A stretch of 64,000 nt of DNA from Caldilineaceae bacterium (GTDB taxonomy: Bacteria > Chloroflexota > Anaerolineae > Caldilineales > Caldilineaceae). The DNA is taken from assembly GCA_022824025.1 (NCBI GenBank), contig JAJEBF010000013.1:1-64000 (forward strand), read 5' to 3'. A program made the position numbers and the translations under genes. Below, piece after piece: positions 2,875 to 10,503 of this stretch. The notes below the pieces were generated by a model. The model had not been told where the DNA came from. It did not search any database and saw only the letters and a program-made list of their open reading frames with translations. Position 1 is the first letter of the stretch. The number at the start of each line of letters is the position of its first letter.

Positions 2875-3708
2875 ATGACAGTCGCCATTGAACGTCCCGC
2901 CCAGACACAGTCTGGGGGAGCCGCAGCGTCCGCGAATGCGACCGGCAGGTTTGCCATCGAAGCCGGAAAGATGAACGTCTTCTACGGCAGTTTCTGCGCA
3001 GTTCGCGATGTAGACATGCGCGTCCCGACAAACAAGATTACCGCCATCATTGGGCCTTCCGGTTGCGGCAAGAGCACGGTCCTGCGCTGCTTCAACCGCA
3101 TGAACGATCTGATTGCCAGCGTACGGATCGAAGGCGAGGTCCTGTTTCAGGGCCAGAACATCTACGACGACAGTGTCGACCCTGTGGAAGTCAGACGCCG
3201 AATCGGTATGGTCTTTCAGAAGCCGAACCCTTTCCCGAAAACGATCTATGAGAACGTCGCCTGGGGCACGCGCATCAATGGGTTCCGCGGGGACATGGAC
3301 GAGATGGTCGAGAAGGCTCTCCGCTCGGCCGCGCTATGGGATGAAGTGAAGGACAAGCTGCAACAGAGCGCTCTCGGCCTTTCCGGCGGACAGCAGCAGC
3401 GGCTTTGCATTGCCAGGGCCATAGCGGTTGAGCCGGAAATCATTCTGATGGACGAGCCAGCCTCCGCCTTGGACCCCATCGCCACGTTACGCATCGAAGA
3501 TTTGATGAAGGAGCTCTCGGAGAAGTACACAATTATCGTCGTTACTCATAATATGCAGCAGGCCGCGCGTATCTCAGATTTCACCGCCTTTTTCAGTGTT
3601 GACGAAAACCGGACCGGCAATCTCATCGAGTTTGACGAAACAGAGAAGATCTTCACCAATCCCAGCCAGAAGAGCACTGAGGACTATATTACTGGGCGGT
3701 TCGGATAG
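2875..3708 (+). CDS. pstB: Phosphate ABC transporter ATP-binding protein PstB
   Basis: A 277-residue ATPase that powers phosphate import on the cytoplasmic face of PstCA. Walker A is GPSGCGKST at residues 60-68, the ABC signature LSGGQ at 169-173, and Walker B IILMDEP at 189-195, followed by SALDP and the H-loop VVTHNMQQA. The segment [11 protein letters not shown] is characteristic of PstB. An N-terminal tail of about 25 Ala/Ser/Thr-rich residues precedes the domain. It starts 17 bp after pstA with AGGAG upstream, so it belongs to the same operon. Confidence 0.95.
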
Positions 3709-3733
3709 AATCCGAATCCTCGTAGAGGATAAC

Positions 3734-4159
3734 ATGAGCAAAAACAAGAAACGAGTACTCATACTATGCACCGGCAACTCCTGCCGAAGTCAGATGGCGG
3801 AAGGCCTCGTTAATGCGTATATGGGCGATGAGTGGCAGGCATTTTCGGCCGGTACGGCCCCATCAGGCATGGTTCACCCGTTAGCCGTGAGAGCGATGTC
3901 GGAAATCGATGTCGACATAAGCGAAGGCGTTACGCAGTCCGTAGACGAGTTTCAGGAGCTTAACCCCGACCTGGTTGTGACCGTCTGCGACAGCGCCGCC
4001 CAGAACTGCCCCGTTTGGCTTGGGGACGAGGAGGTTGTCCATATGCCCTTTGATGATCCCACCAAAGTGCTGGGCAACGATGCAGTGAGAATGGAAGCCT
4101 GCCGGCAGGTAAGGGACTTGATGAAGGAAGAGCTGCTCGCGTCACTTCAGAGTCGTTAA
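3734..4159 (+). CDS. arsC: Thioredoxin-coupled arsenate reductase (LMW phosphatase fold)
   Basis: A 141-residue protein of the low-molecular-weight phosphatase superfamily. The P-loop CTGNSCRSQMAEG starts at Cys12. A second pair, Cys85 and Cys92 (VCDSAAQNCP), matches the Cys82/Cys89 relay of Staphylococcus-type ArsC, which reduces arsenate to arsenite using thioredoxin; plain tyrosine phosphatases lack this pair. It sits between pstB and phoU (25 bp after pstB). This placement makes sense because Pst-type importers can also carry arsenate. The ATG at 3734 gives the family N-terminus; longer in-frame starts would overlap pstB. No arsenite efflux gene is visible nearby. Confidence 0.85.
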   Translation: MSKNKKRVLILCTGNSCRSQMAEGLVNAYMGDEWQAFSAGTAPSGMVHPLAVRAMSEIDVDISEGVTQSVDEFQELNPDLVVTVCDSAAQNCPVWLGDEEVVHMPFDDPTKVLGNDAVRMEACRQVRDLMKEELLASLQSR

Positions 4160-4184
4160 CGTTTTGGCAAAAAGGAGGCCATTG

Positions 4185-4853
4185 ATGGGTCAACTATTGC
4201 GCACCTCATTTGCCAGGGAGTTGGAAACGCTTCAGACCGATACACTCATGCTCGGCAGCATGGTGATCCAGGCCTTAAAGGAGTCCGTCGAAGCTCTCAG
4301 GCGCCGGGATATGGACGTTGCGAGGCGTTTAATCAAAGAAGATGAAATTATCAACAGCAAGCGATTCGAAATCGAAGCCGACTGTCTTCGCTTGATTGCA
4401 ACCCAACAGCCCATGGCAGGGGACCTTCGACTGATTGCCGCGGTTCTCGAAATCAGCACGGAGCTGGAACGAATCGGGGACTACGCGAAGGGGATTGGCC
4501 GCATCATATTGCTGATTGGCACAGAGGTCTTGATCAAGCCCTTGGTCGATATACCCAAAATGTGCGACATTGCTACGGAGATGCTACAACAGTCCCTCGA
4601 CGCCTTCCTGCACCAGGACCTGGAAGCGGCCCGCACCATCCCGCTCCGCGATGATGAGGTCGACGATCTGTACAATCGAGTGCACCGCGACTTGATCGAA
4701 ATGATCCTGGAGGATACGTCCTTGATTGACCGCTGCAACTACCTGCTCTGGGCTGCCCATAACCTGGAGAGGGCGGCCGACAGGGTCTCCAACATCTGCG
4801 AACGGATTATCTTCACTGTTACGGGAGAGTTCTTCGAGTTTGACATGAATTGA
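4185..4853 (+). CDS. phoU: Phosphate signalling protein PhoU
   Basis: A 222-residue, all-helical protein with the two tandem PhoU domains typical of the family. The conserved metal-binding type segments are visible (LRLIAAVLEISTELERIGDY in the first half, NYLLWAAHNLERAADRVSNI in the second). PhoU links Pst transporter activity to phosphate sensing and limits uptake when phosphate is plentiful. The ATG at 4185 is preferred over an upstream TTG at 4164 because AAAGGAGG (4171-4178) lies six bases ahead of it. It is the last gene of the pst operon. No PhoR/PhoB pair is adjacent. Confidence 0.94.
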   Translation: MGQLLRTSFARELETLQTDTLMLGSMVIQALKESVEALRRRDMDVARRLIKEDEIINSKRFEIEADCLRLIATQQPMAGDLRLIAAVLEISTELERIGDYAKGIGRIILLIGTEVLIKPLVDIPKMCDIATEMLQQSLDAFLHQDLEAARTIPLRDDEVDDLYNRVHRDLIEMILEDTSLIDRCNYLLWAAHNLERAADRVSNICERIIFTVTGEFFEFDMN

Positions 4854-6666: not shown

Positions 6667-8394
6667 TCAGGTTGAACCCGTCATGTACAGATTCCCAAGT
6701 TCGAAACCCCGCGCAGCATAGTAGGCTTGCGTACCGGTCGCGGCGATTACACTGATCCGTTCAAAGCCGGCTGCGCGGCTGAGCCGTCGAGCTTCTCGCA
6801 GGAGACGCGTGCCGACGCCGGCATGCTGCGCCGCCCCCGTTTCAGAACGCCCAATCGCAAGAGCCGGGCCGTACACGTGCACTTCGCGTATCATGGCCGC
6901 CCCTTGGATCTCATCCAGAAAGGCCCGGCTTCCCGCGGTTGCCGTTTTGGGAAGACTCAATCTGAGAAACCCTGCGAGCGGGAGGCGCGCCAAGTCTTCA
7001 CGCGGGCCGTTCTCCCCGCCGTCGACCGAAACGAACTGCAGGAAATGCTCGACAGTCAGATCCGTGGTGTAGGTTGAGACCGACAACCGCAGCGAATCCT
7101 CGCGAATCTGCTTGCGGCGCACCTCGCGGCAACGGATGCAGTGACAGCTTTTGCCCCGCCTCGCCAGCTCCCGGTGGACGACCTCACGCAGGTTGCTTGT
7201 CTTGACACCGGCCTCGATGTGATGGGCCGGGATGTCGCGAAACAGGCGGTTGATCCGCGTGTAGGGCGGCACGAACGGTTTGACATCCGCAAGCAGACCG
7301 ACCAGCTCCTGTTCGGTATAGGGATGATAGTTGCCTGCCAGCCACTCGTCGTAGAGCTCGGTTCCGGCGATCAGTGAGCATGGATAGATTTTGAGTTCGT
7401 CCGGCCGGATCGACTCATCGTCGAAGAAGCGGCGAAAGGAATCCCGATCCGAATCCAAAGTTGCTCCGTAGAGGTTGGGCATCCAATGCAGATGAATTTT
7501 GAATCCGGCAGTGCGCAGCAGGCCCAGGGCGTGCTTCACTTCGTCCACCGAATGACCCCGCTTGTTCAGTTCAAGTACGTGGTCCTCGAGGCTTTGGACG
7601 CCGATCTGTACCTTGGTTACCCCCAACCGGCGCATCTGTTTGATTTCGTCCGGCGTGATCCAGTCAGGTCTTGTTTCCACCACCAGGCCAACATTGCGGT
7701 GCGCGGAGAGGACGTTTTCCTGTTTGGCATCTTCCAGGCTGGAGGACGGTACCCATCCACTGTTGCCGAAAGCGTTCATCGCGTCGTAGCAGCGACGCAC
7801 AAACCACTCGCGGTAGTCCTGGCTGTAGGCGCCCCATGTACCGCCCAGGATCAGCAGCTCAACCTTGCTTGCGTCGTGTCCGATACTCTCAAACGCTTCG
7901 ATGCGGCCGTACGTTTGTTTGAAGGGGTCAAAACCGTCGCGTTCGGCCCTCTGCGCCCCTGGTTCATCGAAGATGTAGCTCTTGGGCATCCGCCAATCGT
8001 CGGGGCAGAAGATGCACTTTCCCGGACAGCCGGCCGGCGCTGTCAGAACCGTCACCGGTGCCACGCCGCTGGAGGTCCGCACCGGCTTCATGCGGATTCT
8101 GTCCAGAAGAGCCGAGTGAGGTTCCAGCTCGCCCTCTTCGATCAGGAAGCGGAAACCGGCAACCAGGTCAGACTTGGCATAGAATCCTTTGCCGTCCTTT
8201 GGGTATCGGGCTAGAATGGATCGCAGGGTACGACTGGCGTCCCAGTCCGATTCCTGTACGGCAAGAACCTCGCGGAAGATCGCGGCCAGCGCGGCGCGGT
8301 GATCAGCCGGTTCGAAGCTGCGTTTCTTCTGCCACTCCTGGGATATCTGCAATACCTCAGCCGGAATCTCTTCCGGTGTCAAGACTCGTCTCAT
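6667..8394 (-). CDS. elp3: Elp3-type tRNA wobble-uridine radical SAM/acetyltransferase
   Basis: A 575-residue Elp3 homologue. The N-terminal helical region is followed by a radical SAM domain with the cluster motif CPGKCIFCPDD and the conserved RMPKSYIFDEPGAQRAE segment. A GNAT acetyltransferase domain occupies the last 100 or so residues (HAGVGTRLL, then AYYAARGFE). Elp3 uses S-adenosylmethionine and acetyl-CoA to build carboxymethyluridine at tRNA position 34. The ATG whose first base is 8394 gives the family N-terminus; an upstream start at 8523 would overlap the divergent methyltransferase. No other Elongator subunit is present, as expected for bacterial Elp3. It is divergent from a Trm9-like gene with about 60 bp between the starts. 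Confidence 0.93.
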   Translation of the reverse strand: MRRVLTPEEIPAEVLQISQEWQKKRSFEPADHRAALAAIFREVLAVQESDWDASRTLRSILARYPKDGKGFYAKSDLVAGFRFLIEEGELEPHSALLDRIRMKPVRTSSGVAPVTVLTAPAGCPGKCIFCPDDWRMPKSYIFDEPGAQRAERDGFDPFKQTYGRIEAFESIGHDASKVELLILGGTWGAYSQDYREWFVRRCYDAMNAFGNSGWVPSSSLEDAKQENVLSAHRNVGLVVETRPDWITPDEIKQMRRLGVTKVQIGVQSLEDHVLELNKRGHSVDEVKHALGLLRTAGFKIHLHWMPNLYGATLDSDRDSFRRFFDDESIRPDELKIYPCSLIAGTELYDEWLAGNYHPYTEQELVGLLADVKPFVPPYTRINRLFRDIPAHHIEAGVKTSNLREVVHRELARRGKSCHCIRCREVRRKQIREDSLRLSVSTYTTDLTVEHFLQFVSVDGGENGPREDLARLPLAGFLRLSLPKTATAGSRAFLDEIQGAAMIREVHVYGPALAIGRSETGAAQHAGVGTRLLREARRLSRAAGFERISVIAATGTQAYYAARGFELGNLYMTGST

Positions 8395-8454
8395 GATTTC
8401 GGGAAACTCTGCCGAGTTGTCTCTGTGGTCGATCAGCAAGCACGCCTCCGTCTG

Positions 8455-9234
8455 ATGAACAGGCAGACTCAGGCAACGTTGCTTGCGTTGAACCGCGAAT
8501 TCTACGAAAGAGTCGCGCCGCATTTCGACGCGACGCGCCGAGGTTGGACGCCAGGACTGTGCGCTATTCTACCTCATCTCAGAGCCCTCGGAAAGGAGAA
8601 GCTGGCTGTACTGGACGTTGGTTGCGGCAACGGCCGTTTCGCCAGGCTGCTGGCGCACGAGGGAATATCCGCCCGCTACACAGGAGTTGACGGAAATCAG
8701 GCCCTGCTCCAGCTGGGCAGGAAAGCCGCCAAAAACCTGGCGGGGGTCGACTGTCACTTTGTCGAGGCCGACCTGGCAGACCCGTTCTGGACGGACACGT
8801 TGACGGTCCGGCGCGACACAGACGCCGGCGTCTCGACGACAGTTGAGCCGCCCCGGTTTGACGTCGTCTTGTGTCTGGCAACAATGCAACACCTGCCGGG
8901 CTATGCGATGCGACTGCGACTGCTGACAGAGTTGTGCCTTCTGAGCGCAGGTCCTGTCATTCTCTCATTCTGGCAGTTCCTGAGCAGCGAGAGATTTCGA
9001 TCCAAGTTAATCGAGCCGAAGGAAGCTGGAGTTGATTCTTCCACGCTGGAGACGGGGGACGCGTTCCTCCCCTGGCGGCAAGGCGTCGAGGCCGTGCGTT
9101 ACGTTCACCAGGTCGATGAAGCCGAGTTAGGGCAGTTGGCCGCAGACGCCAGCATGTCCGTTTTACAGACGTTTCGCGCCGACGGCAAGGAAGCCAACCT
9201 GAATCTCTATGCAGTGCTTGCGTGCACACGCTAG
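8455..9234 (+). CDS. Class I SAM methyltransferase resembling tRNA methyltransferase Trm9/ALKBH8
   Basis: A 259-residue Rossmann methyltransferase. Residues 16-35 (FYERVAPHFDATRRGWTPGL) and motif I LDVGCGNGRFA (53-63) closely follow the N-terminal signature of Trm9 and the ALKBH8 methyltransferase domain (consensus VY-x-x-IAPHF-x-x-TR-x-x-WP then DVGCGNGK). A later segment, GPVILSFWQF, corresponds to the ALIYCWA strand of Trm9. Those enzymes methylate carboxymethyluridine made by Elongator to give mcm5U. The gene starts 60 bp from elp3 in the opposite direction. The assignment is by motif and context only; a general SAM methyltransferase remains possible. The start at 8455 avoids overlap with elp3. 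Confidence 0.75.
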   Translation: MNRQTQATLLALNREFYERVAPHFDATRRGWTPGLCAILPHLRALGKEKLAVLDVGCGNGRFARLLAHEGISARYTGVDGNQALLQLGRKAAKNLAGVDCHFVEADLADPFWTDTLTVRRDTDAGVSTTVEPPRFDVVLCLATMQHLPGYAMRLRLLTELCLLSAGPVILSFWQFLSSERFRSKLIEPKEAGVDSSTLETGDAFLPWRQGVEAVRYVHQVDEAELGQLAADASMSVLQTFRADGKEANLNLYAVLACTR

Positions 9235-9318
9235 GCGAACATGAAGAGCAGGACCTTGCGCTGATTCGGCGCTTCAGGATCAAGAGGCTTGATACCTTTT
9301 ACCCATACTGGTGGAACG

Positions 9319-10503
9319 ATGCAACCGGACAAACGAACGAAGAACATATTCGACGGATTCAATACCTTCTTTGAAGGGAGTCCGACCCATCTTGCCATCG
9401 CGCCGGGCCGAGTCAATCTGATCGGTGAACACACCGACTATAATGACGGGTTCGTCTTGCCTGTCGCTCTTGACCGTGACGTTCGCGTGCTGTTCCGGCC
9501 GCGCAGCGACGGTCGGATCCGGCTGTACGCCCTGGAGTTCGACTCGTGGGCGGATTTTGAAGTCGGGTCGAGGGAAAGAAACAGGAATGACTTGTGGCCC
9601 AACTATGTGCAAGGCGTCGGTTTAGAACTGGCAGAGTTGGGGCTCCGTTTGCAGGGATTTGAGGGGGTTGTCAGCGGCAACGTGCCGCGTGGAAGCGGTC
9701 TGAGCAGCTCCGCGGCGCTGGAAATCGCTTCCGCCAAGGCATTCCTGACCGCGGCCGACCAGATTCACGCACTGACCGGCCCCCAACTGGCGCGGGCGGC
9801 CCAAAAGGCAGAGAACGAATTTGTCGGCGTCAACTGCGGCATCATGGACCAATTTATCAGCACGCTCGGCGAGGAGGGCCATGCCCTCCTGATCGACTGC
9901 CGCACTCTTGACTACCGGCGCGTACCGATTCCCGATGGTGTGTCCCTGGTGATCGGCAATACAAAGGCAAGCCGTTCGCTCGCCGGCAGCGCGTACAATG
10001 AACGCAGGGCCCAGTGCGAAGACGGCGTTGCCAGGTTGCAGACGGCGCTTCCATCCATTGCGGCGCTGCGCGATGTGAGCAGTGAAGAGTTGCAGGCACA
10101 CAGCAGTCTGCTCTCAGAGACCGTCTACCGCCGCTGCCGCCATGTTGTCAGCGAGAACGAACGCGTCGTGGCTGCGGTTGACGCCCTGGAAGGGGGCGAC
10201 TTTCTCAGAGTGGGTCAGTTGATGAATGCTAGCCATGCCAGCCTGAGGGATGATTACGAGGTTAGCAGCGAGGCCCTGGACAGGATGGTTGATGCGATGC
10301 GAAGCCATTCCGCTTGTCTGGGCGCCCGGTTAACGGGAGCGGGTTTCGGCGGCTGCGCGGTTGCGCTGGTTCAGACGGGCTCGGAGACAGAGGTACGCGA
10401 GTCAATTCAGGACAAATACGCCAAGACGATGAACATCTGGCCGGAGGTCTATATCAGTCCCCCCAGTTCAGGCGCACGCGTTTTGCCTCTCTCTAACATG
10501 TAA
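9319..10503 (+). CDS. galK: Galactokinase
   Basis: A 394-residue GHMP-family kinase that phosphorylates galactose at C1 (Leloir pathway). The galactokinase signature [15 protein letters not shown] lies at residues 30-44, the ATP-binding loop [14 protein letters not shown] at 122-135, and the C-terminal GHMP motif [13 protein letters not shown] near residue 350. The ATG at 9319 (GGTGGAA just upstream) fits the family N-terminus; an in-frame ATG at 9289 is an alternative. No galT or galE is adjacent. The next gene begins four bases after its stop. Confidence 0.95.

Follow-up and report, generated by a model that had tools for sequence, protein, structure and literature searches.

Can a bacterium combine Elp3 with a Trm9-like methyltransferase in a pathway leading to 5-methoxycarbonylmethyluridine at the wobble position of tRNA (mcm5U34)? 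The question is raised by the window, a stretch of 64,000 nucleotides (positions 1–64,000 of contig JAJEBF010000013.1 from a Caldilineaceae bacterium; Chloroflexota; Anaerolineae), in which elp3 and a class I methyltransferase gene lie side by side in divergent orientation. The comparisons reported here make it likely that Elp3 produces 5-carboxymethyluridine (cm5U34), which the Trm9-like enzyme would esterify to mcm5U34, or to its 2-thiolated form mcm5s2U34 where MnmA acts, in replacement of MnmE and MnmG (MnmEG); this chemistry we infer from gene content and homology. The pair and the region that separates it are as follows.

6667–8394, minus strand: elp3, encoding a tRNA uridine(34) radical S-adenosylmethionine (SAM)/GNAT enzyme of 575 aa (P0002), assigned from TIGR01211, Elp3 matches in the PDB and a conserved start.
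8395–8454, no strand: divergent intergenic region of 60 bp, start codon to start codon, with near-equal spacing across most of the genus.
8455–9234, plus strand: gene for a probable Trm9-like class I SAM methyltransferase of 259 aa (P0001), assigned from Pfam, a family profile and an AlphaFold2 model.

Alignment with relatives placed the likely start of Elp3 at ATG 8394, not at the upstream 8523, and that of the methyltransferase at ATG 8455, and the spacing of the pair is almost unchanged in most of the genus. The original prediction had described a divergent elp3/methyltransferase pair about 60 bp apart; both open reading frames are indeed present, with 8395–8454 between their starts.

The distribution of the genes was analyzed in 150 Anaerolineae genomes and in 187 genomes of one Patescibacteria class. 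Elp3 was detected in 80 of the 150 Anaerolineae genomes, including every one of the 72 methyltransferase carriers (Fisher P 4e-34). MnmE/MnmG, the usual bacterial route, likewise targets C5 of U34, in tRNAs of the same kind; MnmG and MnmE were each found in 46 Anaerolineae genomes (union 50), and both Elp3 (P 8e-24) and the methyltransferase were absent from all 50. Missing data would hardly leave sets of 80 and 50 genomes without a single member in common, and the complete lack of MnmE/MnmG in Elp3 genomes considerably raises the likelihood that the pair would act in sequence on cm5U34. In the Patescibacteria class, the 12 methyltransferase genomes all fell within the 23 Elp3 genomes, and no MnmG over cut-off was found in five pair-bearing genomes outside Chloroflexota. 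Around 20 of the 150 Anaerolineae genomes (e.g. G027, G032, G034 and G063) showed neither Elp3 nor MnmE/MnmG.

The two genes are also physically linked. Among 80 named loci, elp3 divergently adjoins the methyltransferase gene in 57 (including four from Patescibacteria and one from a Deltaproteobacterium), a few of these having it one to several kb off on the same contig, and among the 72 Anaerolineae carriers elp3 lies within 5 kb in 56 and is divergent in 55, an arrangement that exceeds chance. In the Patescibacteria class elp3 is divergent in 12/12 carriers, at a distance of 112–1091 bp. The pair co-occurs and stays neighboring in at least two phyla. Three Patescibacteria genomes (G210, G311 and G358) contain weaker and shorter relatives of the methyltransferase (~104 bits, open frames of 209–246 aa), still divergent from elp3, which are possibly a separate subfamily.

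In 53 loci with both proteins, tree distances of Elp3 and the methyltransferase showed a correlation of 0.86, the largest value from 500 permutations being 0.22. In both trees the four Patescibacteria group together within the same eleven-member clade, whose remaining members are the Deltaproteobacterium and six loci carrying the label Chloroflexota or Anaerolineae. Common species descent accounts for some of the correlation but not for this cross-phylum clade, and judging from these trees the two genes appear to have moved between phyla together. Single metagenomic contigs may have been misbinned, but such an error is less likely for twelve genomes belonging to one class.

The gene at 6667–8394 encodes Elp3. 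Its product scored 494 bits against TIGR01211 (cut-off 350), which covers the full-length radical SAM and GNAT architecture, and a phmmer search of the PDB returned the DmcElp3, MinElp3 and yeast Elp3 structures with E values down to 4.7e-102. The acetyl-CoA site motif QHxGxGxxL of the relatives listed is present as QHAGVGTRLL, and about 90 residues precede the aligned core. The Fe-S cluster motif is located as follows.

8005–8028, minus strand: Fe-S cluster motif C123-PGK-C127-IF-C130 of Elp3 (CX3CX2C), read from the sequence.

This spacing falls one residue short of CX4CX2C, the motif of the aligned solved Elp3 chain, and recurs in 52 of 53 paired Elp3s and in 35 further Elp3s from Anaerolineae and Patescibacteria (L117–L151). 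It was considered as a marker of methyltransferase-paired Elp3s and rejected, as unpaired Elp3s carry CX3CX2C as well.

On its own, P0001 exceeded the cut-offs of the generic methyltransferase profiles Methyltransf_25, Methyltransf_11 and Methyltransf_23 of Pfam, and no NCBIfam model in its match table reached its cut-off. An AlphaFold2 model gave a confident class I fold (predicted local distance difference test, pLDDT, 92.2; predicted template modelling score, pTM, 0.90). Relatives taken from 41 genomes and the 80 named contigs were used to build two family alignments, A1 (18 sequences) and A2 (40 sequences). When the A2 profile was searched against 177,635 PDB sequences, Yarrowia Trm9 (5cm2_Z) ranked first with 54.2 bits (E 1e-13), and among the five alignments printed only that of Trm9 extended beyond the Rossmann core into the C-terminal lid region, with its D-x-x-x-P/D-W and RYxH motifs. 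An hhalign comparison of the family with two yeast Trm9 sequences gave an uncalibrated probability of 99.3% over 201 aligned columns. In the reciprocal direction, a yeast-only Trm9 profile run over the 150 Anaerolineae genomes (threshold E 1e-6) gave its 12 highest scores all to members of the methyltransferase family, and of the 34 carrier genomes having any match at that threshold, 31 had the family gene as top hit. The best profile matches of the family are thus not to unrelated methyltransferases devoid of Trm9 features, and the neighborhood with elp3 is conserved.

Residues invariant in A2 are F16, Y17, F24, R28, the DxGCGNxR core, H146, W173, W207 and R215, and A21 is also invariant or nearly so. 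The original prediction had taken APHFDATRRGW (residues 21–31), DVGCGNGR (54–61) and SFW (171–173) as a Trm9 signature. All three motifs are present, but as a signature they are weaker than proposed: the “PH” of APHF is not conserved across the 40 relatives, and DVGCGNGR is the ordinary class I motif I, by itself not Trm9-specific. Single residues were compared with Saccharomyces cerevisiae Trm9 (ScTrm9), in which alanine mutants of R29, H115, R241, Y243 and N271 lose tRNA affinity and activity (PMC5372719). The equivalents in P0001 are R28, Q145, R215, V217 and N250, and in the 40 family members the ScTrm9 residue is kept at R29 in 40, H115 in 33, R241 in 40, Y243 in 0 and N271 in 31, including the window protein. 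The ScTrm9 sequence used here is not a database copy; it matched 5cm2 with E 9.7e-71, and each of the five published residues proved to be the expected amino acid once the numbering was shifted by one. The corresponding features of the window are listed below.

8515–8538, plus strand: N-terminal motif A21-PHFDAT-R28, with R28 aligned with ScTrm9 R29 and invariant in 40/40.
8614–8637, plus strand: SAM-binding motif I, DVGCGNGR (54–61), from the sequence and the A2 alignment.
8887–8892, plus strand: Q145-H146, aligned with ScTrm9 H115-H116; H146 is invariant, and 33/40 have H at position 145, where the window protein has Q.
8971–8973, plus strand: invariant W173, which aligns with the tryptophan in the YCW/YVW motif of Trm9.
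9097–9108, plus strand: R215-Y-V-H218, aligned with ScTrm9 R241-Y-Y-H244; R215 is invariant in 40/40, and position 217 is V, C or A.
9202–9204, plus strand: N250, aligned with ScTrm9 N271; N in 31/40, S in 7 and G in 2.

Several findings weigh against the identification with Trm9 and against a joint pathway. Single-sequence searches with P0001, against profiles and the PDB, returned generic methyltransferases only, which is why the family alignment was built. With the A2 profile the margin of Trm9 over other methyltransferases was about 4 bits, and the narrower A1 profile placed Trm9 sixth in the PDB, so that the PDB ranking alone is not decisive. A profile of the C-terminal region by itself gave no significant match to Trm9, the region aligning only within the full profile, and in the window's own genome the yeast Trm9 profile found nothing at E 1e-6, the window protein included. 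The Y243 equivalent is never conserved, and that of H115 is Q in the lineage of the window. Comparison of the model with PDB chains, another check suggested at the outset, yielded a confident class I structure but did not single out Trm9: all 1,000 aligned chains had Z of 8 or more, 5cm2 was not among the matches listed, and the comparison is uninformative because class I methyltransferases all score alike. As to distribution, the two genes are unlinked in 16 of the 72 Anaerolineae carriers, eight Anaerolineae genomes (G033, G045, G076, G095, G103, G116, G124 and G133) have Elp3 with no detectable methyltransferase, the genomes are mostly metagenome-assembled, and the presence of the genes follows families, so that fewer independent events underlie the co-occurrence than its P values suggest. 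In the eight Elp3-only genomes the pathway may end at cm5U, or a different enzyme may carry out the second step. On balance, we call the methyltransferase Trm9-like: it is probably homologous to Trm9 and similar in action, and a candidate for strict membership of that family.

The alternative that survives best, though we consider it unlikely, is that the methyltransferase modifies the Elp3-derived wobble uridine otherwise than as a carboxyl ester, acting on a further derivative, on the ribose 2′-O or on an Elp3 side product. Co-occurrence and MnmEG exclusion show only that the two proteins share one common process, and the changes at the H115 and Y243 equivalents in the window protein imply a pocket possibly unlike that of Trm9. 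Against this reading stand the invariance of the R29 and R241 equivalents and the rank of Trm9 as best solved relative of the family. Less probable again is a second anticodon modifier functionally linked to Elp3, either a METTL6-like enzyme forming 3-methylcytidine at position 32 (m3C32) or a CmoM-like enzyme converting uridine 5-oxyacetic acid (cmo5U) to its methyl ester (mcmo5U). METTL6 was among the top VIA-align matches of the model (Z 21.6, root-mean-square deviation 2.9, 219 aligned), and Escherichia coli CmoM performs a comparable reaction, the SAM-dependent esterification of a carboxyl side chain on wobble uridine (PMC10516636), but its substrate is cmo5U, in a different pathway. With the A2 profile CmoM scored 33.9 bits and METTL6 fell outside the best 60 (under 33.8; ~29 bits with A1), as against 54.2 for Trm9, and an m3C32 or cmo5U activity would need neither the Elp3 found in every carrier nor the lack of MnmG in all of them. 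Least probable of all, by a little, is a methyltransferase acting on a protein or small molecule and merely sharing the neighborhood or promoter region of elp3, as the very large class I superfamily, the generic Pfam/NCBIfam matches and the 16 carriers with separated genes might suggest, since unlinked carriers too always have Elp3 (72/72 overall), divergent pairs are found again in Patescibacteria and the tree of Elp3 matches that of the methyltransferase.

We therefore retain the esterification of cm5U34 as the preferred reading, and the original interpretation of an Elp3 and Trm9-like methyltransferase pair is supported, sequential action on cm5U34 being its conditional part. Elp3 would use acetyl-CoA and a SAM-derived radical to place a carboxymethyl group on C5 of U34, giving cm5U34, and the Trm9-like methyltransferase would then transfer a SAM methyl group to the cm5U34 carboxylate, giving the ester mcm5U34; substrate, product and order of action are here those expected from the two families. 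MnmA, which adds the 2-thio group, was found in 142 of the 150 Anaerolineae genomes and 70 of the 72 carriers, the window genome included, and its near-universal presence in carriers makes mcm5s2U a plausible end product in some tRNAs; where MnmA thiolates the same tRNA, mcm5s2U34 would result. The module would stand in for MnmE/MnmG and its methylating partners. A requirement for a Trm112-like partner is not supported by gene content, the distribution of PF03966 not following that of the methyltransferase: such proteins occur in 127 of 150 Anaerolineae genomes, and none was shown in at least 9 of the 72 carriers. As MnmEG genomes are among the 127, the bacterial role of Trm112-like proteins is not tied to the methyltransferase.

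The proposed module resembles eukaryotic Elongator (Elp3) with Trm9/ALKBH8 in joining Elp3 to a Trm9-like class I methyltransferase with equivalents of R29, R241 and mostly N271. It differs from the eukaryotic pathway in its bacterial host, its divergent neighboring genes and the expected lack of Elp1, Elp2, Elp4, Elp5 and Elp6, prokaryotic Elp3 acting alone, and the bacterial enzyme differs from eukaryotic Trm9 in having no large insert before RYxH and in its changes at H115 (in the window) and Y243. By published description it also resembles the archaeal pairs of Sulfolobus solfataricus and Haloferax volcanii, in which Elp3 alone is accompanied by a Trm9 homologue. The Trm9 homologue is clustered with elp3 in S. 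solfataricus (PMC5372719; first noted in PMC2584109), (m)cm5U has been reported in H. volcanii tRNA (PMC6367351, PMC7663514), and cm5U34 formation is established for archaeal Elp3 (PMC7663514). Like DmcElp3 of Dehalococcoides mccartyi, P0002 is a Chloroflexota Elp3 of the same family, its best PDB matches being Elp3 structures; unlike DmcElp3, which lacks the extended N-terminus that joins in tRNA recognition in archaeal Elp3 (PMC6367351), it has the residues ahead of the aligned core noted above. MnmE/MnmG, with MnmC or MnmM, are different enzymes with a different product, never found with Elp3 in one sampled Anaerolineae genome. Among the genes flanking the pair (2875–4853 and 9289–10503), reading of the translations alone recognized, on one side, PstB/PhoU-like phosphate genes together with a small ArsC-type phosphatase/reductase and, on the opposite side, a galactokinase-like gene; no tRNA-related gene was recognized there.

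Previous accounts listed mcm5U as a signature of eukaryotic tRNA (PMC2584109), found no bacterial gene with significant similarity to the eukaryotic Trm112-dependent methyltransferases, Trm9 included (2017 review, PMC5372719), and described bacterial Elp3 from one clade (Dehalococcoides), its product unknown, with no evidence for bacterial cm5U derivatives (2020 review, PMC7663514). No description of a bacterial Elp3–Trm9 pair was found in the part of the openly licensed literature that was searched. The chemistry is already known, mcm5U occurring in eukaryotes and some archaea, and it is the bacterial use, the range and the exchange with MnmEG that appear to be new. We think it rather more probable than otherwise that across much of the Anaerolineae, and in some Patescibacteria, MnmE/MnmG has been replaced by an Elp3–Trm9-type mcm5(s2)U34 pathway, without Elongator accessory subunits and perhaps without Trm112, encoded as a divergent two-gene module that moved between phyla. 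About half of the sampled Anaerolineae carry Elp3, in nearly every case alongside the Trm9-like partner and in no case alongside MnmE/MnmG. Should the product be confirmed, bacteria would possess a simple two-enzyme version of Elongator/Trm9 amenable to reconstitution in vitro, and it would become possible to study how one route to a modified wobble uridine is exchanged for another that is not homologous to it.
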